Assembly: GCA_011391215.1 (NCBI GenBank)
Contig: JAABQX010000007.1
Span: 1-52,161 of the forward strand
Direction of reading: 5' to 3'
Source: Rhodocyclaceae bacterium
GTDB lineage: Bacteria > Pseudomonadota > Gammaproteobacteria > Burkholderiales > Rhodocyclaceae
Length of the DNA stretch: 52,161 nucleotides
How positions within the stretch are numbered: the stretch's first letter is position 1; each line of letters starts with the position of its first letter. Under the pieces are notes generated by a model that did no database searches, was not told the origin of the DNA, and saw only the letters and a list, made by a program, of their open reading frames with translations. Shown piece after piece: positions 143 through 50,400 of the stretch. Both the position numbers and the translations under genes were made by a program.

Positions 143-166
143 AAAAGTCGGCGCTGGCAGGACGGC
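143..166 (+). repeat. 24-bp dispersed motif, copy 1
   Basis: One mismatch to the window consensus (AAAA, then GTCGGCGCTGGCGGGAC, then GGC). It lies six bases after the phosphofructokinase stop codon, between genes. Confidence 0.9.
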
Positions 167-172
167 GGGTGA

Positions 173-261
173 TGTTTAGGGTTGTACGACGCCCGCCCGG
201 CTGACCTCGTCACGTATTGACATTCCCGCGCGGGTGGGCAGGCATCGCACAACCCTAAACA
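173..261. repeat. 89-bp element with long imperfect terminal inverted repeats
   Basis: The left arm at 173-193 begins TGTTTAGGGTTGT. The right arm at 241-261 is its near-perfect reverse complement (19 of 21 bases pair), and pairing continues inward through the GC-rich stretches near 194-202 and 229-240. The element sits between the phosphofructokinase and rhodanese genes, which converge here. It could be a MITE-like remnant or a large bidirectional terminator hairpin; there is no T-run typical of a terminator. No second copy was noticed in the window. Confidence 0.65.
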
Positions 262-316
262 GTTGTGTGAATTCGTGAAGGTCCGGTTTTGGAAGCAGAA
301 CCGAAAGGCAGTTTCC

Positions 317-796
317 CTAATCTAGATCCTTTGGCTTTCTCTGGAAGTCCAGCAACTTGTTGGCGAAGTACCTGTCGCCGAGCTCCGGGGCGACCGGATT
401 GCCCTTCATATCGACCAAGGGCATGTCGAATTCGTTCCAGCCACGCAGGCCCGTCTTCAGCGAGGTGACGTGCTTGTAGCCCATACGCATCAGGGTATGC
501 GCGGCGAATACGCTGCGGCTGCCGGAGCGGCAGACGACGACGATCTGCCGCTCACGCGCATTGACCAGCTCCGGCTCGGTCTCCTCGTGGTCCCATTCCA
601 CGGCGGTCTCCAGGATGCCGCGGGGCACGTGCAGCGAGTCCTTGATGCGCATCGTGTCGTGTTCTTGGTTCTCCCTGACATCCAAGAACAGCAGGTCGTC
701 CCCTTTTTCCAATCTTTTTTTGACATCCCAAGGAAAACACTCGTGGACCTCCGGCAGGATTTCTGCCACCAGATCCTTGTAAGTCACTCGTTTCAT
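317..796 (-). CDS. Rhodanese-like sulfurtransferase domain protein
   Basis: A 159-residue protein with a single rhodanese domain at about residues 25-130. Family marks are LFLDVRENQEHD near the start of the domain, the active-site loop CRSGSRS with the persulfide-forming cysteine at residue 89, and GLRGW near the end. Such single-domain proteins carry sulfane sulfur or act in thiol chemistry; the substrate cannot be read from sequence. There is no signal peptide, so it is probably cytoplasmic. It is a monocistronic minus-strand gene between intergenic repeats. The ATG at 796 is the start that keeps the usual short N-terminal helix. Confidence 0.85.
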   Translation of the reverse strand: MKRVTYKDLVAEILPEVHECFPWDVKKRLEKGDDLLFLDVRENQEHDTMRIKDSLHVPRGILETAVEWDHEETEPELVNARERQIVVVCRSGSRSVFAAHTLMRMGYKHVTSLKTGLRGWNEFDMPLVDMKGNPVAPELGDRYFANKLLDFQRKPKDLD

Positions 797-927
797 GGTT
801 TCTTCACGGATTTGCCTTTGATATGCCCATCATAATCCGCAAATCGACAAACAGCATTTCGACAAATACAGAAATACGTATGCACTTGGCAACAGACCGC
901 TCAGGGCACTTAGCCGGCATTCAGGCG

Positions 928-951
928 AAAAGTCGGCGCTGGCGGGACGGC
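928..951 (+). repeat. 24-bp dispersed motif, copy 2 (exact consensus)
   Basis: Perfect match to the consensus, in the 263-bp space between the divergent rhodanese gene and the small secreted-protein gene. Flanking bases CG on the left and GG on the right are shared with several other copies. Confidence 0.95.
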
Positions 952-1059
952 GGTAGACGCGGCTTACAACTCGTTACAGTTGCACAGTCATCGATCTGGC
1001 GCGCCCCATCGTTATTGGAAGCATGCGCATGTGCGCTGCTTACGATAAGGGAACCACAA

Positions 1060-1338: not shown

Positions 1339-1353
1339 GTTCGCGTCGCTGGC

Positions 1354-1388
1354 AAAACGCTCCCCCTCCAAGCGGGAGCGTTTTCTTT
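1354..1388 (+). terminator. Intrinsic terminator after the small secreted protein
   Basis: Arms AAAACGCTCCC at 1354-1364 and GGGAGCGTTTT at 1374-1384 form an 11-bp stem with a 9-base loop. The right arm ends in a T-run continuing TTTTCTTTT. Confidence 0.85.
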
Positions 1389-2680: not shown

Positions 2681-2696
2681 TCTTGTCGGCGCCCAG

Positions 2697-4151: not shown

Positions 4152-4163
4152 GGCAATGAGTGG

Positions 4164-6855: not shown

Positions 6856-8682
6856 TTATGCCGCTGTGTCGTTGCCTCGGGAATTTTGATGTAAGGGTAA
6901 TTGCACGCTTACTTCGGCTCCACCCCCTTGTTCCGCAGGCCGATTGATCAGGGTAATCGTGCCGCCATGATCGACGATGATCTTCTGCACGATGGCCAGC
7001 CCCAGCCCGGTACCCTTGGGCTTGGTGGTGACATACGGCTCGAAGGCGTGAGTCAGAATCTGCGCGGGGAACCCCGGGCCGTTGTCGCTGACCGCCAGCT
7101 GCACCCCGTGGCGGGAAAGCCGGGTCGTCACGGTAATGCAGAGGGTGGAGGTATCGGCTGGCGCCGTCCCGCCACCGCCGACTTTTTCCATCAGGGCCTC
7201 GGCGGCATTCTTAATCAGGTTGTGCAGCACCTGACGGAGCTGGTTTGCATCCGCCTGGATTTGCGGCAACAGCGGATCGAGCGTGGCGTTCACCTTGACC
7301 GTTCCCTCCTGATAAAGCTCCAGAACCTCGAGAACCAGAGAATTCAGATCGAGCGGGGCTGGCACGGCGGGCGGCAGGCGTGCGTAGTCGCGGAAATCAT
7401 TGACCATGTTCTTCATCGCCTCGACCTGATCGACGATGGTGCGCGTGGCGCGCTCAAGCATGGCGCTGTCGGCACTATCGAGCTTGCCGGCCAGTTTCAT
7501 CTGCAGGCGTTCGGCTGAAAGCTGGATGGGGGTGAGCGGGTTCTTGATCTCGTGTGCCAGCCGGCGCGCCACTTCACTCCAGGCCGCCGCGCGCTGAGCG
7601 GCGATCATCGAGGCCTGGGCGGCTTCGCGCTCCTGCTTGGCTTGGTCGAGCTGCAACGTCATGTCGTTAAACGAGCGCGTCAGCACACCCAGCTCGTCGT
7701 CGGTTTCCAGCGTCGCGCGCGGCGTGAGATCGCCCGCCGCCACGGCGCGCGTGCCTTCAACCAGCATCAGCAGAGGCTTGGCAAGCCGTGCGGCAAGGAA
7801 AAAAGCCAGCGCCACGGCGGCAAACAACGCCAGCAGCAGTGCAAAGGTCAGCGTCAGCGTGTAGAGGCGTTTCAGGCCGGCACGCCCCAGCTGCAATTCC
7901 TGATAATCGCGCTGGGCGGCCTCCACGAGGCCGGCGCTTTGCGTGATGGCAAGCGGCACCGCTTGTTCCAGTTGCAGCACCAGCGGTTCGCTGGCGAGGC
8001 GATAACCGCTGACCGGCACCAGCGCCCGCACCACTAACCCGCTGACGGTATCGCCATCGACGCGCGCGGTACCGGTACCCAGGCGGGCCTGACGCATTTG
8101 CGCCGCCGTCGGCAAGGTGGGCAGCAAACCCTGCATGCCGTCACTGCTATTGGCCACCACCTCCCCGTTCGCCTTGAGTACCACGACGCCCGGTACGCTG
8201 GATTGTTCGCGCAGGCGATTGAGCAGCACGGGGTCGATGGTCGCCGTGCCGGCCAGGTCGTAAGCCATGCTGCGCCCCTTGGTCAGCAAATCGTCCTGCA
8301 TCGCATCGAGCACGCCGCGCCCCAGGTCGAGCCCGCCATCGAGCGCCGATTCGACACGCACATCGAACCAGGAGTCGATGCTTTTAACCGCAAACTGCAT
8401 CGACACGGCATACACCAAGGCACCGGGCAACACCGCCATCAGCGCCAGCATCAGCAGGAGTCGTAATTTGAGCCGGGTGCCAAACACGCCGGCACGGTAT
8501 TCGCGAAACAGCCGTCGCACCTGGGCGCCGACCAGGCCCAGCAGCACCAGCGCCGCCAGCGCATTCATGCCGATCAGCAGGGGCGTGTGCTGCGAAAACA
8601 GGGCGGTATCGGCGCTCGCCGAGGCCAGCATGAAAACCAGCATGGCACTCAGGCCGGCTACCACCGCCAGTGCGATGATCAT
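6856..8682 (-). CDS. NtrY-like membrane sensor histidine kinase
   Basis: A 608-residue kinase. Hydrophobic segments are near residues 1-25, 35-55 and 73-100, then an extracytoplasmic domain, a further membrane span near 280-300 and a HAMP-like linker. The HisKA box reads RRLAHEIKNPLTPIQLSAERL (phospho-acceptor His). The ATPase part has NLIKNAAEALM (N box), DNGPGFP (G1) and GTGLGLAIV (G2). The segment KVGGGGTAPADT, between the N box and G1, is written by a copy of the 24-bp repeat. The start overlaps the DUF4390 stop (ATGA). It pairs with the downstream NtrX-like regulator. The signal is unknown; nitrogen status or redox are usual in the family. Confidence 0.9.
   Translation of the reverse strand: MIIALAVVAGLSAMLVFMLASASADTALFSQHTPLLIGMNALAALVLLGLVGAQVRRLFREYRAGVFGTRLKLRLLLMLALMAVLPGALVYAVSMQFAVKSIDSWFDVRVESALDGGLDLGRGVLDAMQDDLLTKGRSMAYDLAGTATIDPVLLNRLREQSSVPGVVVLKANGEVVANSSDGMQGLLPTLPTAAQMRQARLGTGTARVDGDTVSGLVVRALVPVSGYRLASEPLVLQLEQAVPLAITQSAGLVEAAQRDYQELQLGRAGLKRLYTLTLTFALLLALFAAVALAFFLAARLAKPLLMLVEGTRAVAAGDLTPRATLETDDELGVLTRSFNDMTLQLDQAKQEREAAQASMIAAQRAAAWSEVARRLAHEIKNPLTPIQLSAERLQMKLAGKLDSADSAMLERATRTIVDQVEAMKNMVNDFRDYARLPPAVPAPLDLNSLVLEVLELYQEGTVKVNATLDPLLPQIQADANQLRQVLHNLIKNAAEALMEKVGGGGTAPADTSTLCITVTTRLSRHGVQLAVSDNGPGFPAQILTHAFEPYVTTKPKGTGLGLAIVQKIIVDHGGTITLINRPAEQGGGAEVSVQLPLHQNSRGNDTAA
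7163..7186 (-). repeat. 24-bp dispersed motif inside the ntrY-like gene
   Basis: One mismatch to consensus, in the sense direction of the kinase gene. It encodes KVGGGGTA in a loop between the N box and G1 box, where length variation is tolerated. Confidence 0.85.
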
Positions 8683-9266
8683 TTTTCGGTGGCCGGCACA
8701 AAGTCCCAGCGCAGCGTCATGGCTTCGATGCGCCAGTCCTGATCGGCGAGTGCATCGACCTGCAGGGGCTTGGGCAACTGGGCGTGATCGAGCGACAGGC
8801 GCACGGCGGCGGTATAGGTTTCGCCCGTGAGCAGCGCGGCCTTGTCGATGACATGCAGGCGGCCGACGCGGCCGAGCGTGCGCAAGGCCTCTTCGAGGGT
8901 ATCGAAATTCTGGTGCAGACCACCCAGCGACAAGCGATATTGACGGGTGAGCGCCTGATAACTCAGGCGATAGCGGACCACATGGCCGGCAACGTGTTCG
9001 TCGATCCAGTAGCGGCGCTTGCGCGTCAAATCGAATTCGAAGCGAAAGTGCAGGGGCACGCTGCGCCGTACGGCGTCTTCCAGACGTGGCCCCAAGTCGA
9101 TGGAAAACTCGGCGGTAACCGCCTCCCCTTGTTCATCTGCGACGAGGGCCGCACTTTTTGGTTCGATGTTGCCGGCCCAGGCTACCCCCAGGCAACACAG
9201 ACAGCCCAGTACGACAAGCGCACGCTCAAGACGTTTTTTCCAGCAGTGCGTAAAAGAAGCCGTCAT
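8679..9266 (-). CDS. DUF4390 family protein
   Basis: A 195-residue protein if it starts at ATG 9266 (MTASF), inside the 3' end of rsmB. That start gives a single N-terminal membrane or signal segment (RALVVLGCLCCLGVAWA) followed by a soluble domain matching the DUF4390 pattern (FSIDLGPRLEDAV, PLHFRFEFDLTRKRRYW, YRLSYQALTRQYRLS). As I recall, this family occurs between rsmB and ntrY in betaproteobacteria; no function is established. It is probably periplasmic. The overlap with rsmB is 41 bp and with ntrY 4 bp, so all three are co-translated. Confidence 0.8.
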   Translation of the reverse strand: MTASFTHCWKKRLERALVVLGCLCCLGVAWAGNIEPKSAALVADEQGEAVTAEFSIDLGPRLEDAVRRSVPLHFRFEFDLTRKRRYWIDEHVAGHVVRYRLSYQALTRQYRLSLGGLHQNFDTLEEALRTLGRVGRLHVIDKAALLTGETYTAAVRLSLDHAQLPKPLQVDALADQDWRIEAMTLRWDFVPATEK

Positions 9267-10506
9267 GTGTCGCCGCAGGCAAAAGTTGCAGTTCAGTAGC
9301 ATCACCACCCGTCGGCAGGCGGCGGGCGGCAGAGTGACGCGCCACGAAGGCGCGCACTTGTTCGCTATTTTCCTGAGGAAATACCGAGCATGTGCAGTAA
9401 AGCATTTTGCCACCCGGCGCCAGCAGAGGCCACAAAGCATCGAGAATTGCCGCCTGGGTGCGTGCGAATCCCGCCACATCACCGGCGCGGCGCAGCCATT
9501 TGATGTCGGGATGACGGCGTACCACGCCGGAGGCCGAGCAAGGTACGTCAGCGAGGATGCGCTCGAAGGGGCGGCCATCCCACCAACTGGCCGGCTGGCT
9601 GGCATCCCCGACCTTGACGCGCGCTGCCAGCCCCAGGCGTTCGAGATTTTCGACAATCCGGGGGGCGCGCGTGGCATCCCGTTCCAGCGCGGTCAATTCG
9701 AGATCCGCCAACTCCAGCAGATGCGCCGTTTTACCGCCGGGCGCGGCACAGGCATCCAGCACGCGTTGGCCATCCCACACATCCAGCAAGACAGCGGCCC
9801 GTTGTGCGCCCCAGTCCTGCACGGAAACCTGACCTTCACGGAAACCGGGCAGGCGCTCGACCGGCATGGGCTTTTCCAGCAGCAGCGCTGTTTCATCCAG
9901 CTGTTGGGCGGTGATGCCCGCTGCAGCAAGCGTTTCGCAATAGTCGGCGCTCACGGTACGGCGCCGATTGATGCGCAGACACATCGGCGGGTGACTGTTG
10001 CCGGCTGCGGCGATGTCTTTCCACTGGGCCGGATAGACCGTACGCAAATTTCTCAGCCACCAGGCCGGATGCCGCCAGCGCGCCATCATATCGGCGTCGG
10101 CTGCGGCAAGAAATTCAATCTGCCGGCGCAGGAAGTTGCGCAGCACGGCATTCACCAGCCCCTTGAAATTGCCGCCCGCCATGCCGGCCGCCGCCTTGAC
10201 GGCCTGATCGACAATGGTGTGGGCATCCGCCGGCCGCCGCTCCAGGCGCGCCAGAGCGACCAGCAGCAGGGCGTGGACACTCTGGTCCTTGAGGGGTTTT
10301 TCGAGCAGTTGGCCGAGCAGGAAGTCGCCGCGACCGAAGTCGCGCAGGGTCGTGAATGCCAGATCCTGCGCGCCCGGCCTCACATCTGCCGCAATTTGAG
10401 CGAACACTGCCTCGGGAGTTTTGCCAGCCATGACGGCGGCAATGGCTTGTGTCGCTGCGCCGAGCGTATCGACCATTGCCGGAGAACGTGGGGAAGATTG
10501 TTTCAT
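9226..10506 (-). CDS. rsmB: 16S rRNA (cytosine-967-C5)-methyltransferase RsmB
   Basis: A 426-residue enzyme. The N-terminal NusB-like domain (about 1-145) is followed by the SAM-dependent methylase domain. Visible motifs are DACAAPGGKTAHLLEL (SAM binding), RILADVPCSASGVVRRHPDIKW (motif IV, PC cysteine) and CTCSVFPQENSEQV (motif VI, catalytic TC cysteine). It methylates C967 of 16S rRNA. It sits in the operon between fmt (34 bp upstream) and the DUF4390 gene. A degenerate copy of the 24-bp repeat lies in it near 9939-9962, coding for TVSADYCE. Confidence 0.95.
   Translation of the reverse strand: MKQSSPRSPAMVDTLGAATQAIAAVMAGKTPEAVFAQIAADVRPGAQDLAFTTLRDFGRGDFLLGQLLEKPLKDQSVHALLLVALARLERRPADAHTIVDQAVKAAAGMAGGNFKGLVNAVLRNFLRRQIEFLAAADADMMARWRHPAWWLRNLRTVYPAQWKDIAAAGNSHPPMCLRINRRRTVSADYCETLAAAGITAQQLDETALLLEKPMPVERLPGFREGQVSVQDWGAQRAAVLLDVWDGQRVLDACAAPGGKTAHLLELADLELTALERDATRAPRIVENLERLGLAARVKVGDASQPASWWDGRPFERILADVPCSASGVVRRHPDIKWLRRAGDVAGFARTQAAILDALWPLLAPGGKMLYCTCSVFPQENSEQVRAFVARHSAARRLPTGGDATELQLLPAATHDGFFYALLEKTS
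9939..9962 (+). repeat. Degenerate 24-bp dispersed motif inside rsmB
   Basis: 20 of 24 bases match the consensus, antisense to rsmB. The encoded RRTVSADY resembles the RRLASADF produced by other copies in the same frame, which supports common origin despite four mismatches. Confidence 0.55.
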
Positions 10507-10540: not shown

Positions 10541-11458
10541 CTACGAGAAGTGCTGGCCGGCCGCAAGCGAAAAACCGTGCAGAAAGTCGGCGCTGGCGAG
10601 ACGGCGGCCGCCCGGCTTTTGCAGTTCGACAAGCCTGAGCGCACCCTCTCCGCAAGCCACCGTAATGCCTTCCGGAACGGCGGAGAGGATCTCGCCCGGC
10701 TGCCCGCTACCGGACACGGTTTTCGCATGCCAGATCTTGATCGTCGCATCGTCCAGTCGGGCGGTGCTGCCGGGGAAGGGATCGAAGGCACGGATGCGGC
10801 GCTCGATTTCGTGTGCCGGCTGACGCCAGTTGATGCTGGCTTCAGCCTTGTCGATCTTGCTGGCATAGGTCACGCCGGCCTCCGGCTGCGCTTTCGGTGC
10901 CAACACCTCAAAGCGCCGCAAGCTGTCGACGATCAGCCGCCCGCCGAGCATGGCAAGCTTGTCGTGCAATGTTGCCGCCGTCTCGCCAGCGCCAATTTTA
11001 AGGTTGCCAGCCAACAGCATCGGACCAGTGTCGAGGCCGGCTTCCATCTGCATGATGGTCACGCCGGTTTCCGCATCACCAGCCTCGATGCAGCGCTGGA
11101 TCGGCGCGGCACCGCGCCAGCGCGGCAACAACGAAGCATGGATGTTGAGGCAGCCGCGCTGCGGAATATCGAGCACTGCCTGGGGGAGAATCAGGCCGTA
11201 GGCCGCTACCACCAATAAGTCGGGCGCGGCTTCGATCAGCGGTACATGGGTGGCAGGGTCTTTCAGCCGCTCCGGTTGCTGCACAAGAATACCGTGAGCC
11301 AGCGCGACTTGCTTGACCGGGCTGGAGACGAGTTTTTGCCCGCGTCCGGCAGGGCGATCGGGCTGGCTCAGCACGAGGGGAATTTCGAAGCCGGCGGCAA
11401 GCAAGGCCCGCAAAGCGACGGCAGCGAATTCCGGCGTACCCGCGAAGGCAATTTTCAT
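10541..11458 (-). CDS. fmt: Methionyl-tRNA formyltransferase
   Basis: A 305-residue enzyme that formylates the initiator Met-tRNA. The N-terminal Rossmann domain has [16 protein letters not shown] and [14 protein letters not shown]. The catalytic region has [24 protein letters not shown], with the Asn, His and later Asp (GLDTGPML) of the family. The C-terminal OB-like domain follows. It is coupled to def 10 bp upstream. Two copies of the 24-bp motif lie inside the gene, one at its 3' end giving RRLASADFL and a weaker one giving KIGAGETAA, so part of this essential enzyme is written by the repeat. Confidence 0.96.
10582..10605 (+). repeat. 24-bp dispersed motif inside fmt (3' end)
   Basis: Two mismatches. 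Antisense to fmt; the gene reads it as RRLASADFL, 9 residues also present in the APH/AAA kinase at 34135-35514. Confidence 0.85.
10977..11000 (-). repeat. Degenerate 24-bp dispersed motif inside fmt (centre)
   Basis: Four mismatches. Sense to fmt, encoding KIGAGETAA just after the catalytic GLDTGPML segment. Confidence 0.5.
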
Positions 11459-13109: not shown

Positions 13110-14192
13110 GTGTCAATGAGCGCCGAACAGGCCAGCTGGTTGCGACTGACCCTGGTGCCCGGCGTCGGTGGCGAGGGGCAGCGCCAGCTGCTCAAAGCGT
13201 TTGGTGGCCCTTCCGAGGTGTTTGCGGCCCCGCCTAGTGCACTGCGTGGTGTGCTGGGTGGTGGCTTGGTCGAGCGTTTACTGACCCATGACTGCGCCGC
13301 CGAAATCGACAGCGCCCGCGCCTGGGCAGCACAACCCGGCAACCATCTCCTGACCCTGGCCGATGCGGCCTACCCGCAGGCGCTGCTGACCGCCGCCGAC
13401 CCACCGGTGCTGTTGTATGCCAAGGGTTGTATTACCCTACTGAACCGGCCGGCCTTTGCCATTGTCGGCAGCCGCAACGGGACGAAGCAGGGTGAAATGA
13501 ACGCCGAAAGCTTTGCGGCAACCCTTGCACGGGCCGGCTTGACCATCGTCAGCGGCCTGGCAGCCGGTATCGATGCCGCCGCACATCGTGGCGCTCTTCA
13601 AGAGACGGCGTCAACCATTGCCGTCATCGGCACCGGCATTGACCGCATCTATCCGGCCAGCAATGAGGCACTGGCACGCGATATCGCTGCGCGCGGCGTG
13701 GTGGTTAGCGAATTTTCACTCGGCACGCCGCCCATCGCCAATAATTTCCCGCGCCGCAATCGCCTCATTGCCGGCCTGACGCGGGGTTGTCTCGTCGTCG
13801 AAGCGGCGCGCCAGAGCGGCTCACTGATCACGGCCCGCCTTGCCGCTGAAATCGGGCGCGATGTCTTCGCGATTCCCGGCTCGATCCACTCGCCGCAGTC
13901 AAAAGGTTGCCACGCGCTCATCAAGCAGGGTGCCAAGCTCGTCGAATCAGCTCAGGATATTCTTGAAGAGTTGCGCTGGGAAAATATCGTCAATCCCGCC
14001 ACCTTGCCCTCGGTACCCGAAGCGGAAAGCGACCCGGTCCTGGTCGCGCTCGGCCGCGATCCCTGCGATCTGGATACCTTGGCAACACGCAGCGGCTTGG
14101 CGCCGGAATCCCTGTTGGCGCAACTCCTGCCGCTGGAACTGGATGGTCGCGTCGCCCAGTTGCCGGGTGGGCGCTATCAAAGGTTGAACTGA
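13110..14192 (+). CDS. dprA: DNA-processing protein DprA (Smf)
   Basis: A 360-residue protein that loads RecA on incoming single-stranded DNA in transformation. The Rossmann domain carries AIVGSRNGTKQGEMNAESFA, VSGLAAGIDAAAHRGAL, IAVIGTGIDRIYPASN, NFPRRNRLIAGLT and SGSLITARLA. A C-terminal winged-helix (DML1-like) domain follows at about 290-360. The start is GTG 13110 or ATG 13116 (both in frame, two residues apart). Its presence makes natural competence conceivable, which bears on the dispersed 24-bp motif. It is 28 bp downstream of the LysM gene. Confidence 0.95.
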   Translation: MSMSAEQASWLRLTLVPGVGGEGQRQLLKAFGGPSEVFAAPPSALRGVLGGGLVERLLTHDCAAEIDSARAWAAQPGNHLLTLADAAYPQALLTAADPPVLLYAKGCITLLNRPAFAIVGSRNGTKQGEMNAESFAATLARAGLTIVSGLAAGIDAAAHRGALQETASTIAVIGTGIDRIYPASNEALARDIAARGVVVSEFSLGTPPIANNFPRRNRLIAGLTRGCLVVEAARQSGSLITARLAAEIGRDVFAIPGSIHSPQSKGCHALIKQGAKLVESAQDILEELRWENIVNPATLPSVPEAESDPVLVALGRDPCDLDTLATRSGLAPESLLAQLLPLELDGRVAQLPGGRYQRLN

Positions 14193-14276: not shown

Positions 14277-16907
14277 ATGAGCAAGCAACTAATCATCGCC
14301 GAGAAACCTTCCGTCGCCCAGGACATTGCCAAGGCGCTGGGCGGCTTTACGCGTGAAGGCGACCACTTCGAGAGTGAGCACTATGTGCTCTCCTCCGCTG
14401 TAGGTCATCTGCTAGAACTCGCCGTCCCCGAGGAATATGAGGTCAAGCGCGGCAAGTGGACCTTTACCCACCTGCCGGTGATCCCGCCGCGCTTCACGCT
14501 GAACCCTATCGACAAGACTGCCGACCGCCTGCGCCTGCTGACGCGTCTGGCGAAACGCAAGGATGTCACCGGGCTGGTTAATGCCTGCGACGCGGGGCGC
14601 GAGGGCGAATTGATCTTCCGTTACGTCGTGCAGCACGCGCTGACCGAGAAAACCGCCAAGCCGATTCGTCGTCTGTGGCTGCAGTCAATGACCGCCACGG
14701 CCATCAAGGATGGCTTTGCCCACCTGCGTTCGGACGCGGAAATGCTGCCCCTGGCCGATGCTGCCCGTTGCCGTTCCGAGGCCGACTGGCTGATCGGCAT
14801 CAATGGCACGCGCGCCATGACGGCCTTCAATTCGCAGGAGGGTGGTTTCTACAAGACCACCGTCGGTCGTGTGCAGACGCCGACGCTAGCCATCCTCGTC
14901 GAGCGCGAGCGCAAGATCCGCGCCTTTGAACCGCGCGACTACTGGGAGGTCGAAGCCGAGTTCCAGGCTGTCGCCGGCACCTATCGCGGCCGCTGGTTCG
15001 ACGAGAAATTCAAGAAGCCGGAAGGTGAGTTGGTGGATGGGCACGCCAGGGCCGAACGTCTGTGGGGAAAAGCCAAAGCCGATGCCCTGCGGCAAAACTG
15101 CTTGGGCAAACACGGCATCGTTACCGAAGAGGCCAAGCCCAAGACCGAAGCCTGCCCGATGCTCTATGACCTCACCAGCCTGCAGCGCGAGGCTAACGGT
15201 CGCTTCGGCTTTTCGGCGAAGAACACACTGGGGATTGCTCAAGCCCTGTACGAGCGCCATAAGGTACTGACCTATCCGCGTACCGATTCGCGCTGCCTGC
15301 CGGAGGATTACGTCGGCCAGGTCAAGGACACGCTGCGTTCGCTCGGCGAAAGTACTTTTGGCAAGCATGCCACCACCGTGCTGGACAACGGCTGGGTGCA
15401 TCCGAACAAGCGCATCTTCAACAATGCCAAGGTGTCGGACCACTTCGCCATCATCCCCACCGGTACGCTGCCAAAGAGCCTTTCGGAACCTGAGCAAAAG
15501 CTTTACGACCTGGTGGTGCGGCGCTTTATCGCCATCTTCTACCCGGCAGCCGAATACCTGATTACCACACGTATCACGCGCGTCGAAAGCGAACCCTTCA
15601 AAACCGAGGGCAAGGTGTTGGTTACCCCTGGCTGGCTGGCTGTCTATGGCAAGGAAGCCGTTGGAGCCGACGAGGAAAACCCCAACCTGCCGCTGCTGCA
15701 AAAGAACGAGCGCGTCTGGGCCAACGATGTCGAAGTCAAGGCCAACACCACCAAGCCGCCACCGCGCTTCAACGAAGCGACGCTGCTGTCGGCCATGGAA
15801 GGCGCCGGCAAGCTCATCGAAGACGACGAGTTGCGCGAAGCGATGGCCGAGCGTGGTCTCGGTACGCCGGCGACGCGTGCGGCCACCATCGAAGGTCTGA
15901 TCGCCGAGGAATACCTGCATCGCAATGGTCGCGAACTGCAGCCGACCGCAAAAGCTTTCAACTTGCTATTTGCTCTGGAACAACTCAAGGTCGATGAAAT
16001 CCGCTCACCCGAGCTCACCGGCCTGTGGGAATGGAAGCTCAAGGAGATGGAGCATGGACGCCTCAAGCGCGAGGAATTCATGGCGCACATCACCGGGCAG
16101 ACGCAAGAGATGGTCGAGCGCATCAAGACCGGCGAATTTGCCGATGCCGATTTCGGTACGCTGAAGACAGCTTGCCCGAAATGCGGCGGCACAATTCACG
16201 AAACCTACCGCCACTTCAAGTGCGACCAATGCGACTACAAGCTATGGAAGGTCGTCGCCAGCCGCCAGTGGGAACCCGAGGAAATGGAGCAGTTGCTGCG
16301 CGAGCGGCAGATCGGTCCTTTGCAGGGGTTCCGCAGCAAGATGGGGCGCGCCTTTGCAGCCGTCATCAAGCTCAATGACGAACATGCCCCCAGCTTCGAC
16401 TTCGGCAATGAAGATGAAGGTGGCGAAGAGGTCGACTTCAGCGGTCAGGAGGTGCTCGGCGCCTGCCCGAAATGCGGCTCACGCGTTTTCGAACAGCCGA
16501 TGGCCTATGTCTGCGAAAAATCTACCGGCCCGAACAAGAGTTGCGACTTCCGCTCCGGCAAGGTAATCCTGCAACAGGAAATGTCGCACGCCGAAATGCA
16601 GAAGCTCCTGGAAACCGGCAAGACCAGCCTGCTCAAGGGCTTCGTTTCGAATCGCACACGCAAAAAGTTTTCCGCTTACCTGGTGCGCGGTGCCGATGGC
16701 AAGGTTGGTTTCGAGTTCGAGCAGCGTGCGCCGAAGGCAGCGAAAGCAACGGTCAAGGCGTCAGCAAAAGCCGACACGAAACCGGTCGCCGTGGCGAAGC
16801 CAGTCAAAGTGGCAAAGCCAGTCAAAGCCGCAAAACCTGTCAAGGCCGCAAAAGTCAGCGCTGGCGGGACGGCAAAGAAAAAGCCACTAGCCAAGAAAAC
16901 CTCCTGA
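14277..16907 (+). CDS. topB: DNA topoisomerase III (type IA)
   Basis: An 876-residue enzyme. The TOPRIM domain is at the N-terminus (LIIAEKPSVAQDIAKALGG; NACDAGREGELIFR with the DxD-type metal site). The active-site tyrosine is Y333 in LTYPRTDSRCLPED. At least two C-terminal zinc ribbons follow (CPKCGG...CDQC; CPKCGS...CEKS...CDF), then a Lys/Ala/Pro tail of VKxAKPVKAAK repeats ending in KVSAGGTAKKK, part of which is a copy of the 24-bp motif. The type is the plasmid/TraE-like or TopB form with zinc ribbons. It relaxes and decatenates DNA. It lies 84 bp after dprA. Confidence 0.93.
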   Translation: MSKQLIIAEKPSVAQDIAKALGGFTREGDHFESEHYVLSSAVGHLLELAVPEEYEVKRGKWTFTHLPVIPPRFTLNPIDKTADRLRLLTRLAKRKDVTGLVNACDAGREGELIFRYVVQHALTEKTAKPIRRLWLQSMTATAIKDGFAHLRSDAEMLPLADAARCRSEADWLIGINGTRAMTAFNSQEGGFYKTTVGRVQTPTLAILVERERKIRAFEPRDYWEVEAEFQAVAGTYRGRWFDEKFKKPEGELVDGHARAERLWGKAKADALRQNCLGKHGIVTEEAKPKTEACPMLYDLTSLQREANGRFGFSAKNTLGIAQALYERHKVLTYPRTDSRCLPEDYVGQVKDTLRSLGESTFGKHATTVLDNGWVHPNKRIFNNAKVSDHFAIIPTGTLPKSLSEPEQKLYDLVVRRFIAIFYPAAEYLITTRITRVESEPFKTEGKVLVTPGWLAVYGKEAVGADEENPNLPLLQKNERVWANDVEVKANTTKPPPRFNEATLLSAMEGAGKLIEDDELREAMAERGLGTPATRAATIEGLIAEEYLHRNGRELQPTAKAFNLLFALEQLKVDEIRSPELTGLWEWKLKEMEHGRLKREEFMAHITGQTQEMVERIKTGEFADADFGTLKTACPKCGGTIHETYRHFKCDQCDYKLWKVVASRQWEPEEMEQLLRERQIGPLQGFRSKMGRAFAAVIKLNDEHAPSFDFGNEDEGGEEVDFSGQEVLGACPKCGSRVFEQPMAYVCEKSTGPNKSCDFRSGKVILQQEMSHAEMQKLLETGKTSLLKGFVSNRTRKKFSAYLVRGADGKVGFEFEQRAPKAAKATVKASAKADTKPVAVAKPVKVAKPVKAAKPVKAAKVSAGGTAKKKPLAKKTS
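16850..16873 (+). repeat. 24-bp dispersed motif inside topB (C-terminal tail)
   Basis: One mismatch. Sense to topB, encoding KVSAGGTA in the disordered basic tail. Confidence 0.9.
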
Positions 16908-24551: not shown

Positions 24552-24575
24552 GCCGTCCTGCCAGCACCGAATTTT
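24552..24575 (-). repeat. 24-bp dispersed motif just inside the island
   Basis: Three mismatches. It lies one base after the AAA+ stop codon, between the left direct repeat and the helicase remnant. Confidence 0.75.
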
Positions 24576-26745: not shown

Positions 26746-27178
26746 GGAGAACCTGGAAAACCTGGTGCGCAGCGGTGGCCTCAACAAGGAACCGCCGGAT
26801 CGCAAGGAGTGCGAAGGTTTGCTGCGCTCCGCGATTGATCGACTGAAAGATGCCCACAGCCCGGCACTGTCTTTCGCCAGCCGCTTCGACTTGGCCTACA
26901 ACACCGCCCATGCCCTGGCGCTGACGGCGCTACGCCTGCAAGGCTATCGTTCGGACAAGCGCTATCTGGTATTCCAGTGCCTGGTACACACGATCGACGC
27001 AAGCAAGGCGCAGGTTCGGATGTTTGCGCTGTGCCATGAACGCCGCAATCTGGCGGAATACGAAGGCTACATGGACGTGGACGCCGCCTTGCTGACCGAC
27101 CTGCTTGCCGCCGTCGATTCCCTGCTCATATTGGTGGAAGGTGCGATGAATGATTTCGTGAACAAGGGTCAGACATGA
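26735..27178 (+). CDS. HEPN domain protein (putative toxin partner of MNT)
   Basis: 147 residues, all-helical, matching the HEPN proteins that follow winged-helix MNT genes: [27 protein letters not shown] and a late [21 protein letters not shown]. In many HEPN RNases this last region has R-x4-6-H; here it reads RRNLAEY with no histidine at that spacing, so RNase activity is uncertain. It overlaps the MNT gene upstream and the Res gene downstream (ATGA), so all three are translated together. Confidence 0.8.
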
Positions 27179-29828: not shown

Positions 29829-29878
29829 TGGCCGCCATCGAGGAACAAGACAAGCTGTTCACGGTGACCCTGGCGTAA
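29829..29878 (+). pseudogene. Right 26-bp direct repeat and orphan C-terminus of the AAA+ gene
   Basis: 29829-29854 repeats 24501-24526 exactly. The following codons LFTVTLA and TAA (29855-29878) continue the AAA+ frame as in the functional gene (AAIEEQDKVFSVSLQ there, AAIEEQDKLFTVTLA here). It has no start and is the displaced original end of the AAA+ gene. Confidence 0.85.
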
Positions 29879-30949: not shown

Positions 30950-30973
30950 AAAAGTCGGCGCTAGCGGGACGGC
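30950..30973 (+). repeat. 24-bp dispersed motif before the radical SAM gene
   Basis: One mismatch. It lies 21 bp after the GFA stop and 7 bp before the radical SAM start, so it occupies the ribosome-binding region of that gene. Confidence 0.9.
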
Positions 30974-34138: not shown

Positions 34139-35514
34139 GCGCACCGCCCGCTGCCATCCTCGCCGCCGTGCCGGCGGCCGTCGAGGAATGCATCGAAACC
34201 CATATTTCCTGGGTGCTGCTCGCGGGTGAATTTGCCTACAAAATCAAGAAACCGGTGACGCTGCCCTTTCTCGACTACGGCACGGTCAAAAAGCGCTACT
34301 TCTATTGCCAGGAAGAGCTGCGCCTGAATCGCCGCTTCGCGCCCGATCTGTATCTCGAGGTCATCGACCTGGCAGGCGAGCCGGCGGTGAAGATGCAGCG
34401 CTTCGACGAAGCGCAACGTCTTGACCACGTCAGCAGCCAGGGCGACCTGAGCGGCGCTCACCTGACGCAACTGGCCTGCGACCTCGTCGCCTTCCAGGCA
34501 CGCGCCGTTATCGCGGCACCCGCATTCGGCACTGCGGAAATCATCCGCGCCGATGCGCTGGAAAATTTCGACGAGCTCCAGCGCCTGCTGTCGATCGAGA
34601 CGCCGTTACTCACGCGACTGCGCGACTGGACCGAAGCCGAGTGGCAGCACTGCGCAAAGGATTTCGCCCGGCGGCGCGAAGGCGGCTGCGTGCGCGAAGG
34701 CCATGGCGACCTGCACCTGGGCAATCTTGTGCTGCTCGACGGCCGTGTCGTGCCCTTCGACGGTATCGAGTTCAACGAGGATTTCCGTTGCATCGACGTG
34801 GCGAGCGAAATCGCCTTCACGCTGCTCGACCTGCTGGATCACGGTCAGCCCGGGTTCGCCACCTGGCTGCTCAACGAATGGCTGGCACGCAGCGGCGATT
34901 ACGGCGCGTTGGCCGTCTTGCGTTTCTACCTCGTCTATCGCGCGATGGTGCGCGCCAAGGTGGCGGCGCTGGGGTGTGATGCTGCCGAAGCAAGGCAATA
35001 CCTGGCCATGACGGAACAACTCGTTGCACCGACCGCAACGACGCTGACGATTACCTGCGGCCTTTCGGGCTGCGGCAAGACCTATCAAACCAATCGCCGT
35101 CTCGCCAGCGCCGACTTTTTGCAAACCGTGCGCATCCGTTCCGACGTGGAGCGCAAGCGCCTCTTCGGCCTCGCGCCGGAAGCGGTCAGCGACGGCTCGA
35201 TCTACACGGCTGACGCCACCCGGCGCACCTATGACCGGCTGGCTGAACTCGCCGCTATGGCTTTGGTCGCCGGCTGGTCGGTGATCGTCGATGCGGCTTT
35301 CCTCAAGCGGGCCGAACGCGACGCGTTTCATGCGCTGGCAAAACGACTGGGCGTGCCATTCGCCATTCTGGCGCCCGTTGCACCCCCCGACGAACTCGCC
35401 CGCCGCATCGCGGCACGCCAGAGCGATGCCTCGGAAGCAACGCTCGCCGTGCTGGCGCAACAACTACATTGGTTTGAGCCCCTCGGCGCGGATGAACCGG
35501 CGCTGAATTTATGA
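34135..35514 (+). CDS. Bifunctional APH-like phosphotransferase / P-loop kinase protein
   Basis: 459 residues. The N-terminal half (1-290) is an aminoglycoside-phosphotransferase-like fold with HGDLHLGNLVLLDG (Brenner motif) and FDGIEFNEDFRCIDVASEIAF (metal Asp/Glu). The C-terminal half (300-459) is a P-loop kinase with GLSGCGKTYQTN as Walker A, of the zeta-toxin or gluconate-kinase type. The family is annotated as bifunctional APH/ATP-binding protein and its substrate is unknown. It is the last gene of the radical SAM-kinase operon. The segment RRLASADFL after Walker A is written by a 24-bp motif copy. Confidence 0.82.
   Translation: MSAPPAAILAAVPAAVEECIETHISWVLLAGEFAYKIKKPVTLPFLDYGTVKKRYFYCQEELRLNRRFAPDLYLEVIDLAGEPAVKMQRFDEAQRLDHVSSQGDLSGAHLTQLACDLVAFQARAVIAAPAFGTAEIIRADALENFDELQRLLSIETPLLTRLRDWTEAEWQHCAKDFARRREGGCVREGHGDLHLGNLVLLDGRVVPFDGIEFNEDFRCIDVASEIAFTLLDLLDHGQPGFATWLLNEWLARSGDYGALAVLRFYLVYRAMVRAKVAALGCDAAEARQYLAMTEQLVAPTATTLTITCGLSGCGKTYQTNRRLASADFLQTVRIRSDVERKRLFGLAPEAVSDGSIYTADATRRTYDRLAELAAMALVAGWSVIVDAAFLKRAERDAFHALAKRLGVPFAILAPVAPPDELARRIAARQSDASEATLAVLAQQLHWFEPLGADEPALNL
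35096..35119 (-). repeat. 24-bp dispersed motif inside the APH/AAA kinase gene
   Basis: One mismatch, antisense to the gene, which reads it as RRLASADFL, directly after Walker A; the same nine residues occur in Fmt. Confidence 0.9.
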
Positions 35515-37657: not shown

Positions 37658-37681
37658 GCCGTCCTGCCGGCGCCGACTTTT
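37658..37681 (-). repeat. 24-bp dispersed motif upstream of the hydrogenase operon
   Basis: Two mismatches. It lies in the 216-bp region between the divergent HIT and hydrogenase genes. Confidence 0.85.
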
Positions 37682-37799: not shown

Positions 37800-38897
37800 A
37801 TGAGCAAATCCACCAGCAAAGCGGCAGGTAGCGTTGCCGCGTCTTTGCACGCTGCAGGTATCAGCCGCCGGGAGTTTCTCGGTTTTTGCGCTACGCTGGC
37901 GGCAGCCTACTCGTTGCCGGCTTCAGCGGCCCAGGCGATAGCCGCCGCGCTGGAAAAGGCGGCACGACCATCGGTCATCTGGATGTCGTTCCAGGAGTGC
38001 ACGGGCTGCACCGAGTCACTGACTAGGTCGCACACGCCAACGGTCGAAGGCTTGATTCTCGAAACCATCTCGCTCGACTATCACCATACATTGCAGGCTG
38101 CTTCGGGCGAAGCCGCTGAAAAAGCCCGCGAACAGGCGATGCACGACAATTACGGCAAGTACTTGCTGGTCGTCGATGGGTCGATTCCGCTCGGCAACCC
38201 GGGTTTTTCAACCATCGCCGGTGTCAGCAACCTGGAGATGCTCAAGGAAACCGCCAAGGGTGCGGCCGCCATCATTGCCGTCGGCACCTGTGCGACCTAC
38301 GGCGGACTGCCCGCCGCGTTGCCCAATCCTACCGGGGCAGTCGGCGTGAACCAGTTGATCAAGGATAAACCGGTGGTCAATGTGCCGGGCTGTCCGCCAA
38401 TTCCGGTCGTCATCACCGGCGTGCTGGCGCATTTCCTCACCTTCGGCAAGCTGCCGGAACTCGATGCGCTGGGGCGGCCCAAGGTGTTTTACGGCGAAAG
38501 CATCCACGACCGCTGTTACCGACGGCCGTTCTACGACCAAGGCAAGTTTGCCAAGACTTTCGACGATGCGGGTGCGCGCGATGGCTGGTGCCTCTTCGAA
38601 CTGGGCTGCAAGGGTCCGGTGACCAACAACGCCTGCGCCACCACCAAGTGGAACGGTGGTGTGTCTTTCCCGATCCAGTCCGGACACGGCTGTATCGGCT
38701 GCTCGGAACCGAATTTCTGGGATGCCGGTGGCTTCTACAAAGCCCTGTCTGCACCGGCACAGCCCCTGAAAGTCGGTGCCGGCGTGGCGGCGGCAGCGGC
38801 CGCAGTCGGCGTGGCAGTGAGTTTTTCCAATCGTGGCAAGAAGGGTGCGGCCAAGGCAGCGCACGAAACCACGACGCTCGACGATCTGGAGCCATAG
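37800..38897 (+). CDS. [NiFe] hydrogenase small subunit, Isp-linked type
   Basis: 365 residues. A twin-arginine signal (SRREFLGFCATLAAAYSL; RR at 23-24) sends the folded complex to the periplasm. Iron-sulfur ligands: ECTGCTES (about 63-69) and GTCATYGG for the proximal cluster; HDRCYRRPFYDQ and WCLFELGCKGP for the distal cluster; TKWNGGVSFP and HGCIGCSEPNFWD for the medial cluster. A C-terminal hydrophobic helix (about 322-342) anchors it in the membrane. It transfers electrons from the NiFe site to membrane partners Isp1/Isp2 encoded next. First gene of a five-gene operon. Confidence 0.93.
   Translation: MSKSTSKAAGSVAASLHAAGISRREFLGFCATLAAAYSLPASAAQAIAAALEKAARPSVIWMSFQECTGCTESLTRSHTPTVEGLILETISLDYHHTLQAASGEAAEKAREQAMHDNYGKYLLVVDGSIPLGNPGFSTIAGVSNLEMLKETAKGAAAIIAVGTCATYGGLPAALPNPTGAVGVNQLIKDKPVVNVPGCPPIPVVITGVLAHFLTFGKLPELDALGRPKVFYGESIHDRCYRRPFYDQGKFAKTFDDAGARDGWCLFELGCKGPVTNNACATTKWNGGVSFPIQSGHGCIGCSEPNFWDAGGFYKALSAPAQPLKVGAGVAAAAAAVGVAVSFSNRGKKGAAKAAHETTTLDDLEP
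38768..38791 (+). repeat. Possible degenerate 24-bp motif in the hydrogenase small-subunit gene
   Basis: 19 of 24 bases match. It encodes KVGAGVAA just before the C-terminal membrane helix; KVGxGxxA also occurs in the NtrY and Fmt copies. May be chance in GC-rich sequence. Confidence 0.3.
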
Positions 38898-38898
38898 C

Positions 38899-44924: not shown

Positions 44925-44948
44925 GCCGTCCCGCCAGCGCCGACTATT
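44925..44948 (-). repeat. 24-bp dispersed motif upstream of the Mrp/MBX operon
   Basis: One mismatch. It ends 14 bp before the FNR-type palindrome, in the intergenic region. Confidence 0.9.
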
Positions 44949-44961
44949 AATGCGACGATGT

Positions 44962-46411: not shown

Positions 46412-47100
46412 TCAAGCGCCTCATCGCCCTGGCGTTGCTTGCTGCCGTCGGCAGCGTATTCGCCACTCTGCTGTTCGGCTACACGCCAGATGCCGTCCTG
46501 AACCTCACGGCCCGCTACTACGCTGAACATACTGCCGCCGATCTCGGTGCGGCCAACATCGTTACCGCCATTGTCGTCACCTATCGCGGCCTCGACACGC
46601 TGGGCGAGGTCACCGTGCTGTTCCTCGCCGCCTCCATCGTCGGTCTGGTATTGGCTCAGGGCACGCAGAAAAAGCCCCGTACCCCCGTCCCGGTGGGCGA
46701 ACTGCTGACCACCGGCGCGCGTTTCCTCTTGCCGATGATCCTGCTGCTCGGTGTCTATGTCTTCGTCAACGGCCACCTCACCCCGGGTGGCGGCTTCCAG
46801 GGTGGCGCCATCATCGCCTCGGGTATCCTGCTGCTGCTACTGGCTGATCCGCTCAAGCATTTCAGCCACGGCCTGATTTCTGCCATCGAATCCGTAGCTG
46901 GCGTTATTTATGTATCGATTGGCTTGGCCGGCGTGTTCCTTGCCGGCGGATTTCTCGACAACCGCATCCTGCCGCTGGGCACCCTCGGCGACTTGGCTTC
47001 GGCAGGCGCCATCCCCCTGATCTATTCGCTGATTGGCCTCAAAGTGGGTGCCGAGTTCGCCTCGATACTGGCGAGCCTGTCGGAAACGGAGGAACTCTGA
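46408..47100 (+). CDS. MbhE plus MnhB-like fused membrane subunit
   Basis: 230 residues. The N-terminal third (LFGYTPDAVLNLTARYYAEHTAADLGAANIVTAIVVTYRGLDTLGEVTVLF) matches MbhE/MnhA tail sequences. The rest is MnhB: VPVGELLTTGARFLLPMILLLGVYVFVNGHLTPGGGFQGGAIIASG. In archaeal MBH these are separate genes (E and F), so this is a fusion. It is joined to the MnhC gene by a one-base overlap. Confidence 0.88.
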   Translation: MIKRLIALALLAAVGSVFATLLFGYTPDAVLNLTARYYAEHTAADLGAANIVTAIVVTYRGLDTLGEVTVLFLAASIVGLVLAQGTQKKPRTPVPVGELLTTGARFLLPMILLLGVYVFVNGHLTPGGGFQGGAIIASGILLLLLADPLKHFSHGLISAIESVAGVIYVSIGLAGVFLAGGFLDNRILPLGTLGDLASAGAIPLIYSLIGLKVGAEFASILASLSETEEL

Positions 47101-47456
47101 TGGCCCACTTTGCCATGGCCACCGGCTTCCTGCTGATCCTGATCGGCGCCTGGGGCGCACTGACGAACCGCAACCTGCTGCGCATGATCATCGCCTTCAC
47201 CATCGCCGACAGCGGTGTCAATCTGGTGATCATTGCCGTGGGCTACATGCACGGTCGCACCGCTCCGATCCTCGACAGTGCCGTAGCCGCCGCAGATGCC
47301 GTCCAACGCATCATCGACCCGGTGCCACAGGCGCTGGTGCTCACCGCCATTGTCATCGGCGTCGGCGTCACCGCGCTGATGCTGGCCTATGTCTATCGTC
47401 TGTATGAGAAGAGACGCAGCCTCGACATCGGTGACTTTACGGAACTCAAAGGATAA
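47100..47456 (+). CDS. Mrp antiporter-like subunit MnhC (NuoK-like)
   Basis: 118 residues, three helices; NRNLLRMIIAFTIADSGVNLVIIAVGYMHGRTAPIL and DPVPQALVLTAIVIGVGVTALMLAYVYRLYEK are the MnhC/NuoK signature (the DPxPQALVLTAIVI motif). Membrane subunit corresponding to complex I NuoK and MbxG. A 16-bp gap separates it from the fused antiporter gene. Confidence 0.95.
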   Translation: MAHFAMATGFLLILIGAWGALTNRNLLRMIIAFTIADSGVNLVIIAVGYMHGRTAPILDSAVAAADAVQRIIDPVPQALVLTAIVIGVGVTALMLAYVYRLYEKRRSLDIGDFTELKG

Positions 47457-47472
47457 ATGAGAGGCTGATGCG

Positions 47473-50400
47473 ATGAGCGCCCTGTACATAATCGCCGTCG
47501 GCCTCGGCTCTGCCTTCCTGCTCGGCCTGCTGAACGAACGGCAGCGCGGACTGGCCTACATGATCACGCTGGCCGCGCTGACGATCATGAGTGCGATTTC
47601 CGCCAGCTGGCTGCTTATTTTTGCCGCGACGGGCGCACACCCGATCGACATCCTCACCGCCGGCACCCAGCCGCCTTTCGCGATCAACCTGCGCATGGGA
47701 CTGGTCGAGTCCGCACTCACACTGCTGATCAACCTGACCGGCCTGCTGGCTGCGATTCACATGGGCGACAGCCTGCTGGCCAAGGGTCGGCGTGCCATGG
47801 CGGTGTTGGTCATCGCGATCATGGCACTGTGCGGCATCGTGCTGACGCGCGACATCTTCAACCTGTTCGTCTTCTTTGAGTTGATCGTCATCGCCACCGG
47901 CGGTCTGGTACTACTGTCGGATGCAGATGACAATGGGCGCGCCGTATCCGCCGGGTTCAAGTACCTGATCGTCTCCCAGTTCATCTCCATCCTGTTGCTG
48001 ATCGGCATCATCTTCGCCTATCACGCCACCGGAACCCTGAATATCGACGGCATGGCTGAAATAGTGGGATCAGGCATCAAGCCCGAGCTTGCCACGGCCT
48101 TCTCGCTGGCCTTCTTCCTGATGTTCATCGCCGTGGTCGCCGAACTCAAGCCCTTCCCGGCGAATGGCTGGGCGCTCGACATCTACGAATCGGCGCACCC
48201 CGGCTTCTCGGCGATTTTCTCCGCCGCGACGGGCTCGGCTGCCCTGTTTGCGGTCGATAAGCTGCTGCTGATCGGCGGTGCCGACTGGCTGCCGGTCGCG
48301 ACCGGCATCGGCATCGTCACCTTCGTTGGCGCCAACCTGCTGGCACTACCGCAAACCAACGATCGCCGCCTGCTCGGCTACTCATCGATCGCCCAGACCG
48401 GACTGGTCCTCACGATACTCGGCCAGCAGGACATTCTCGGCGAACACACGCTCTTCATCGCCGGCGGTCTGCTGTTCGCCCATGCCGTCGCCAAGGCCGG
48501 GCTTTACTGGCTGTCGGATTTCGTTGCCACCCGGTCACTGACTGGCTGGGCCGCCCTGCAGGAACGGCCGCTATTGGTGTTTGCCTTCGTCACCTTCGCC
48601 GCCATGCTCGCCGGCCTGCCACCCTTCCCCGGCTTTTACGCGAAATGGGAACTGGTACATATCCTCGCTGCGGAAGGCCGCCTCGCGCTGCTGGCGCTGA
48701 TCCTGTTTGGCGCACTGGTTGAGGCCGGCTATCTGTTCCGCTGGTTTGGCTATCTGATCAAGCGCGAGCCGGATCAAGAGGTTAGCTGCAACACGGTGCA
48801 GATCATTCCTGTCTTCGCCGCCGTGCTCGCCGGCTGGGCACTCGGCTTTGTCTGGGGTGAATTGTCGGGCCACAGCAACCTGCTGCTCGTCCTGCCGCTG
48901 CTGTTTGCGCTGGCCTTCCTGTTGCTCGAGTGGGCGCCGGCCTGGTTCAAGAACACCCTCGCCATCGGCGGCATGGTCACCTTCTTCCTGCAAACCTATG
49001 CCGAATACGACCCGTTGCGCCTGATCTTCGCCGTCATCTTCATGATCGGCGGCGCGGTCACCCTGCTGGCCAGCTACCATGCCCACGGCCGGCGCATTGG
49101 CTTCTACCCGGCTGCGATGCTGATGTTCGCGGGCATGATTCTGCTGATTCGCGCCACCGATACGTTCGGCTTCTTCGCCTCCTGGGAACTGCTGACGGTT
49201 GGCTCCTACTTCCTGATCCTGCGCGGCAAGCATTCCGAACCACATGCGCTGTCCTACATCATTTTCTCGCTTGGCGGCGCGTTCCTGATCCTGACAGCCT
49301 TCGCACTCGCCGCCGCCGCCGTCCCGCCAGCACCGACTTTTGCAATTGCTTCGCTCGGTGAATTGGTACAGCCCGTCGCCCCCTGGGTGTTCCTGCTGCT
49401 CGCCGTCGGCTTCATGACCAAGACCGCTGCCATCGGCGTGCATATCTGGTTGCCTGGTGCTCACGCCGAAGCCGAGACCGACGTCTCGCCGATGGTCTCC
49501 GGCATTCTGCTCAAGGCCGGCCTCTACGGTCTGTTCGTGCTGCTGATGACGATGGGTAAACAATCTCTCTACGGCGTCGAACTCACCTACGTCATGCTGT
49601 GGATCGGCGCCATCACCGCGCTGCTCGGCAACCTGATGGCGATCTTCCAGGAAGATGCCAAGCGTCTGCTGGCCTATTCCTCAATTGGCCAGATGGGTTA
49701 CGCGATGTTCGGCCTGGCCTTGATGAACCACCTCGGCTGGCTGTTGGCGCTGATGTTCGTCATCAACCATTACATCTACAAGTCGATGTTGTTCCTCTCG
49801 GTCGGCGGCGTCGCCAAGCGCACCGGCACACGCGAGATGTACAAGATGGGCGGGCTGATCACGCTGATGCCGTTGAGTTTCATCGCCACGCTGATCGGCA
49901 TCATCGCCGTCTCGGGCGTGCCGCCGCTGTCCGGCTTCGGCGGCCGCTGGATCTTCTACAACGCCATCCTCACCGCCGACTCGCGCCTGCCGATGGTACT
50001 GATCTTCCTCGCCGGCCCGATTGCATTCCTGTATCTCTTCCGCCTCATCCATACCATCTTCCTCGGCCAACTCAAGGACGAGCACCGTCGCATCAAGGAA
50101 GCGCCGTTCTGGATCATCCTGCCACAGATGATCTACGTTGCCCTGCTGATGGTCGTCGCCGTGGTACCAGGCATGGTGCTGCGCCATGTCGATGCCTACA
50201 TCTCACGTTTCTTCCCCGAGGGCGCCTTGAACTGGGAAGGCATGAGCATCACCAGCCAGTTCGGTTACTGGAACCCGGTCGCGATCATGATCATCGTCGG
50301 CGTCATCTTCATGCTGCTGTTCTCCTGGCTGCTGTTCGTCAATCGCAAGGCGCAGAAGGTCAAGCAGTTCAACATCGTGTTTTCTGCCGAGCGGCCGTTC

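Follow-up and report, generated by a model that had tools for sequence, protein, structure and literature searches.

The window analysed here, a stretch of 52,161 nucleotides (nt) from a Rhodocyclaceae bacterium (assembly GCA_011391215.1, contig JAABQX010000007.1, number 7 of 102), contains 15 copies of a 24-bp motif, which an earlier note on this DNA had collected by eye and likened to the DNA uptake sequences of competent bacteria. All 15 were recovered where the note had placed them and on the same strands, 13 with at most three mismatches, as against none in 100 dinucleotide shuffles, and two, at 9939 (plus strand) and 10977 (minus strand), with four mismatches each; the mixed orientation, seven plus and eight minus, was borne out as well. 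No further position in the window has four or fewer mismatches, the next best being 38768 with five and 32744 with six, and the others among the matches listed having seven. The copies are located as follows:

143 to 166, plus strand: motif copy with one mismatch, intergenic by our own gene calls
928 to 951, plus strand: exact motif copy, intergenic by our own gene calls
7163 to 7186, minus strand: one mismatch, within a HAMP/HisKA/HATPase histidine kinase gene (6856-8682, minus)
9939 to 9962, plus strand: four mismatches, within an RsmB/F-type 16S rRNA methyltransferase gene (9226-10506, minus)
10582 to 10605, plus strand: two mismatches, within a formyltransferase gene (10541-11458, minus); the key site for testing in-place origin
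10977 to 11000, minus strand: four mismatches, within the same formyltransferase gene (10541-11458, minus)
16850 to 16873, plus strand: one mismatch, close to the 3' end of a DNA topoisomerase III gene (14277-16907, plus)
22192 to 22215, plus strand: one mismatch, within an open reading frame (21600-22643, plus) that has no Pfam match at 1e-6
24552 to 24575, minus strand: three mismatches, immediately past the stop codon of a gene (22640-24550, plus)
27289 to 27312, minus strand: one mismatch, within a type III restriction Res-like gene (27175-29772, plus)
30950 to 30973, plus strand: one mismatch, intergenic by our own gene calls
35096 to 35119, minus strand: one mismatch, within an AAA_33 domain gene (34135-35514, plus)
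37658 to 37681, minus strand: two mismatches, intergenic, upstream of a NiFe hydrogenase small subunit gene (37800-38897, plus)
44925 to 44948, minus strand: one mismatch, intergenic by our own gene calls
49318 to 49341, minus strand: one mismatch, within a gene for a 1050-aa antiporter/NADH dehydrogenase-like protein (47473-50625, plus)

The word and its abundance in the genome

Searching the whole 2.33 Mb assembly to which the window belongs (2,330,469 bases in 102 contigs, 76% complete) on both strands with at most three mismatches, we counted 515 copies of the motif, 244 forward and 271 reverse, corresponding to about one per 4.5 kb. The reversed pattern, which served as a control at the same threshold, gave none. 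The motif is thus neither near random in number nor restricted to the window.

Its anatomy and placement were analysed in a 448-kb sample of this genome, comprising the window and further stretches on nine contigs, in which 121 sites had at most four mismatches and full flanks. The consensus of these sites is a 25-bp word, AAAAGTCGGCGCTGGCGGGACGGCR, which extends the 24-bp motif by a position that is nearly always a purine. From zero to seven mismatches, the sample contains 18, 47, 33, 13, 10, 6, 7 and 24 copies, compared with none up to five, two at six and 14 at seven for the reversed pattern; the real sites (zero to four mismatches) stand clearly apart from a background that climbs from seven mismatches. 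Conservation along the word is uneven: positions 6, 9, 16 and 22 (T6, G9, C16, G22) round to 100% among the 121 sites, and the most variable positions, 12, 13, 17 and 18, differ chiefly by transitions. The columns sum to an information content of 37.3 bits. As 13.1 bits would be enough to address 515 sites, this excess points to a drive rather than to ordinary site selection. In a viral collection of 2.9 million contigs, the exact word was found in no more than 23 stretches.

Placement and in-place origin of the copies

Genes in the sample were called with a simple purpose-made gene finder, by which about 93% of the bases are coding (overlaps being counted twice). Although 81 of the 121 sites lie in genes and six at gene edges, the 34 that are fully intergenic represent an approximately 4-fold enrichment over the 7.3% of bases that are non-coding (P 5e-12). 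The in-gene sites are distributed unequally over the six frames (0, 13, 29, 23, 14 and 2; chi-square P 4e-9 against equal frames), with 79 of the 81 in four frames that encode bland peptides (KVGAGGTA, AVPPAPTF, RPASADF and KSALAGR-like), and the frame without any site is the one rich in arginine and tryptophan. The 40 sites not wholly in genes are spread over the four gene arrangements (11, 11, 9 and 7, with two open), and some copies lie immediately past stop codons.

Each of the nine contigs carries both orientations, 69 minus and 52 plus in all, and adjacent pairs combine them freely (35 minus-minus, 29 plus-minus, 27 minus-plus and 21 plus-plus). Strand polarity of the kind seen in FtsK orienting polar sequences (KOPS) or Chi was not observed within these contigs, and because neighbouring copies are mixed in orientation we rejected a polar segregation or recombination signal. 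In G017, a genome in one contig, an all-plus tail among the 100 of 113 places listed was taken as an artefact, as the remaining places would fit the minus strand at high coordinates. Furthermore, the copies in the sample are spaced more evenly than expected by chance: the coefficient of variation is 0.71, compared with 0.98 +/- 0.08 in simulations that preserve the coding/intergenic split, none of which, out of 3000, gave a value as low. Seven stretches of 8.5-12 kb without the motif were checked in the sample as possible foreign DNA; five genes were identified there, all in the stretch of lowest GC content and all ordinary (PHA synthase, response regulator and cbb3 oxidase among them).

Homologous loci reveal how the copies arose. 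Over the site at 10582, in the formyltransferase gene, 21 relatives align and differ by substitutions, four of the 21 rows being flagged for gaps. In total, 162 sites yielded 1090 homologous-locus comparisons, many of them between mutually homologous sites, so that the counts are not independent. The motif is shared in 300 of these, a further 236 are gap-free and lack it, 552 have other gaps or are unclear, and two show gaps of motif length, both with untidy flanks; a clean empty site of motif length was found in none of the 1090. Where the flanks are gap-free and at least 75% identical, the corresponding numbers are 60 shared, 44 gap-free without the motif, 26 with other gaps and no motif-length gap. 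At alignable sites, the word therefore arises by substitution in place. The differences by substitution make a mobile insert unlikely, and for alignable sites these alignments nearly exclude the small mobile repeat that the earlier note had kept as a possibility. In homologue alignments, gaps affect 51% of motif segments as opposed to 25% of adjacent segments, a doubled rate that fits a preference of the copies for variable regions.

Three other repeats were noted in the window. A short tandem repeat at 16795-16855, towards the 3' end of the topoisomerase III gene, holds one motif copy; an inverted repeat of 26 nt, with arms at 173-198 and 236-261 that are 37 nt apart, adjoins the first copy and is possibly a terminator; and a 44-nt direct repeat with 84% identity occupies 24501-24544 and 29829-29872.

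Distribution, dialects and competence genes

Among 395 Rhodocyclaceae genomes surveyed, 54 contain between 106 and 730 copies. These include 18 of 19 genomes of the same genus as the window, 21 of 22 of genus g2, and every genome sampled from g9 (one), g38 (one), g86 (four) and g104 (nine). The low exceptions are G006, of the window's own genus, with no copies (87% complete), and G293, of g2, with 17. The remaining genomes of the family have 0 to 28 copies; G102 has 28 by the standard pattern, but a looser pattern detects 277, which are of a sister dialect. The looser pattern was also run on a draw of 150 genomes and on 394 genomes of the order, and none of the 381 outside the family had more than five copies, the control reaching up to 10. 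Two genomes from other families of the order, G071 and G475, have four apparently genuine copies each, possibly acquired via transfer.

A second view of the distribution was provided by relatives of the topB locus. Of the best 80, 38 are titled Rhodocyclaceae, Rhodocyclales, Sulfuritalea, Sulfurisoma or Sterolibacterium/-aceae, and the others carry broader names or belong to Thauera, Azoarcus and similar. In a tree of 67 of these loci and the window, the ten loci closest to the window are all titled Rhodocyclaceae, and a generic form of the word is present at 29 of the 40 rows of one clade and at none of the 28 outside it, with 114 matches at the loci of the tree versus none for the reversed word. 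The locus of Sulfurisoma sediminicola (L043) has only two weak copies. As the loci are at most about 22 kb long, a lack of copies at any one of them says little.

The word differs among clades. We distinguish three dialects, with GTCGGC, GTCGAC and GTCGGT, in which AAAAGTCG and ACGGC are mostly retained. The Sulfuritalea and Sulfurisoma groups of the tree differ at positions 14 to 19; GTCGACGC replaces GTCGGCGC at 19 of 20 sites in G102 and at all four sites of locus L046, and all five sites of locus L048 have GTCGGT.

Two further observations concern genomes with few or no copies. In G139, five copies, all on the minus strand, lie within 41 kb (L254-L256, 1.455-1.515 Mb), in a stretch with copper/silver efflux genes (an AcrB-type pump, a CusS-type sensor and a P-type ATPase), as if a block had been received from a motif-rich donor; similar clusters are present in G040, G113 and G184. 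G006 retains ComEC and the minor pilin families with zero copies and is a possible case of natural loss; a k-mer search of 182 kb of this genome for an alternative dialect found none.

The earlier note had pointed to dprA in the window and to the pil and com genes as the place to look for machinery. The dprA gene was located at 13110-14192, and ComEC, ComEA and two minor pilin families were searched for across sets of genomes. ComEC was detected in 55 of 61 genomes, including the window's own and G006, and in 19 of 20 motif-rich genomes, the exception being G018 (83% complete). The comEC gene itself is enriched in the motif: across 13 genomes, 12 of which have at least one copy in the gene, its 31 kb contain 28 copies at up to four mismatches, a density 3.6 times that of the same stretches outside the gene (54 in 220 kb), or 3.9-fold at three mismatches. 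As the genes are homologous (L159 3730-6132 and homologues in L238, L240-L243, L245, L250-L253 and L257), these copies are not independent, and the density is compared with the surroundings rather than ranked among other genes. Several of the motif positions in comEC are apparently common to different species. Most of the motif-rich genomes examined have FimT-like and ComP-like pilin genes, but these genes occur in motif-poor ones too: PF16732, the ComP family, is present in 89 of 101 genomes, and PF12019 (GspH/FimT) in 28 of 32. Pilin genes next to 18 of the matches to these families showed no pattern with respect to the motif.

A probable uptake sequence and the alternatives to it

Judging from its sequence, number and distribution, the motif is probably a DNA uptake (self-recognition) sequence of a Rhodocyclaceae clade. 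Free DNA bearing the 25-bp word would be bound by a receptor on the cell surface, most likely one of the type IV minor pilins, and cells would thereby import and recombine the DNA of close kin in preference to other DNA. An imported fragment with a good copy would replace a worse allele, and copies would accumulate through point mutation and biased recombination at all positions that can tolerate them; co-evolution of the receptor with the sequence would let the word drift into clade dialects. The receptor, the uptake and the drive that would maintain the copies are what we infer from the pattern. Biased uptake and recombination would be expected to leave such a pattern: more information than needed, copies that arise in place and at permissive positions, even spacing, dialects and loss of the word in single lineages. 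Features by which DNA uptake sequences are known were found here, namely a large genome-wide excess in both orientations, substitution in place at permissive sites, and clade dialects around a conserved part. The resemblance proposed in the earlier note is thereby strengthened on the side of the DNA, by the genome-wide excess of the word, its two orientations and its origin in place, by its frame bias, its enrichment between genes and its even spacing, and by the dialects, whereas the machinery gives a mixed picture.

Several results weigh against an uptake sequence. Canonical ComEA (TIGR00426 above its cut-off) was found in none of 21 motif-rich genomes, compared with 16 of 40 further members of the family (Fisher P 5e-4, relatedness ignored); in the motif-rich set, the ComEA model matches only long open reading frames (620-1723 aa), and in four genomes it has no match. 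This result counts against the standard uptake machine, although a different periplasmic receptor can serve, since Helicobacter uses ComH in place of ComEA. Neither PF16732 nor PF12019 tracks the motif (PpdA and ComN were not searched for), neither was detected in the window's own assembly (76% complete), and G006, of the same genus, has ComEC and both pilin families yet no copy. The smallest of the 112 neighbour spacings in the 448-kb sample is 209 bp, which leaves the sample without close inverted pairs. Finally, because 51% of motif segments are gapped in homologue alignments, about half of the comparisons bearing on in-place origin are undecided.

Alternatively, the word might be bound inside the cell by a protein that organises or repairs the chromosome and requires a site without polarity every few kilobases. 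Even spacing and mixed orientation would suit such a protein, the constancy of T6, G9, C16 and G22 fits a two-part protein contact, and the failure to find ComEA in motif-rich genomes is in its favor. However, we regard this as unlikely: 37 bits are far above the need of about 515 sites, the presence of the word is patchy (none in G006 and none at 11 of the 40 clade loci), a concerted shift of dialect at hundreds of sites would be hard to achieve without a drive, and enrichment in comEC would not be expected. Still less probable, in our estimation, is a tag for another route of horizontal transfer, such as a conjugative or gene-transfer-agent system preferring tagged chromosomal DNA. This would share the features of a bias towards self DNA, would not need ComEA and could draw on the clustered copies in some low-copy genomes (five in 41 kb in G139), but mixed orientation is ill-suited to a polar origin-type signal, and no such system was identified here, none having been looked for.

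High identity among the copies and patchy taxonomic presence would be compatible with many insertions of a small mobile repeat (a mini-transposable element, or one like the repetitive extragenic palindromic (REP) sequences), which substitutions at homologous sites, the lack of motif-length gaps with clean flanks, the frame bias, the near-invariant positions, the even spacing and the weak fold render hardly credible. A regulatory or terminator element, suggested by the T tract at one end beside a GC-rich block and by the copies right after stop codons, is just as improbable, and we rejected both terminator and promoter element, as most copies (81 of 121) are in genes, the other 40 sites show no clear bias to gene starts, gene ends or orientation, and the hairpin, which the earlier note had denied altogether, exists but is weak (about -5 kcal/mol for the motif strand and -2.6 for its complement).

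Relation to known systems and significance

According to extracts of a recent paper (PMC12616744, 2025), Neisseriaceae and Pasteurellaceae are the only families known to discriminate self DNA at uptake via short enriched motifs. The DNA uptake sequences (DUS) of Neisseriaceae, of up to about 13 nt and with ComP as receptor, resemble the Rhodocyclaceae word in the number of their dispersed copies (hundreds to thousands), which take either orientation and lie both in and between genes, and in forming clade dialects around a conserved part (PMC3630211). GCCGTC is common to the DUS and to the complementary strand of the Rhodocyclaceae word, which may be chance. Unlike DUS (10-13), the word is two-part and 25 bp long, and it is not of the GCCGTCTGAA type with the invariant CTG core described in PMC3630211, CTG at positions 12-14 being variable. 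Furthermore, the frequent terminator-associated inverted pairs of DUS were not seen in 448 kb, no canonical ComEA was found in motif-rich genomes and the distribution of the ComP family PF16732 does not follow that of the motif.

The uptake signal sequences (USS) of Pasteurellaceae consist of a 9-nt core with AT-rich regions, up to 32 nt in all, and have ComN as predicted receptor. Like USS, the Rhodocyclaceae copies are dispersed and unpolarised, are longer than two helical turns, and have an A tract beside a GC-rich part. The letters, the host class and the density (here about one copy per 4.5 kb) differ, however; the A tract precedes a continuous GC-rich word, and the AAGTGCGGT or ACAAGCGGT core with GCGG as inner core, as given in the extracts of PMC12616744, is not present. 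GCGG does occur at positions 15-18 of the word, but two of these positions, 17 and 18, belong to the most variable ones.

Other short repeated chromosomal words are REP sequences and bacterial interspersed mosaic elements (REP/BIME), KOPS, Chi and matS. In contrast to REP/BIME, the hairpin is weak and insertion with clean empty sites was not seen; in contrast to KOPS and Chi, there is no polarity within contigs, and the word is far longer and richer in information.

In a literature search that left out most subscription journals, we found no publication on an uptake sequence in Rhodocyclaceae or Accumulibacter, and none of the papers with the string GTCGGCGCTGG concerned these bacteria, as far as titles and abstract openings tell. 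Extracts of a paper on natural transformation (PMC10257627) mention Rhodocyclaceae once, as a family enriched under kanamycin.

Whether the word belongs to a third family-level uptake system, with a two-part word of 25 bp and dialects of its own, operating without canonical ComEA and having evolved separately from those of Neisseria and Haemophilus, is a question on which we are evenly divided. If so, a third family, of environmental bacteria, would offer an independent test of why uptake sequences evolve, of whether they bring an adaptive benefit or arise as a by-product of receptor bias, and of whether their reader is in every case a ComP-like pilin. The word would also provide a sequence tag for detecting gene flow among these genera.

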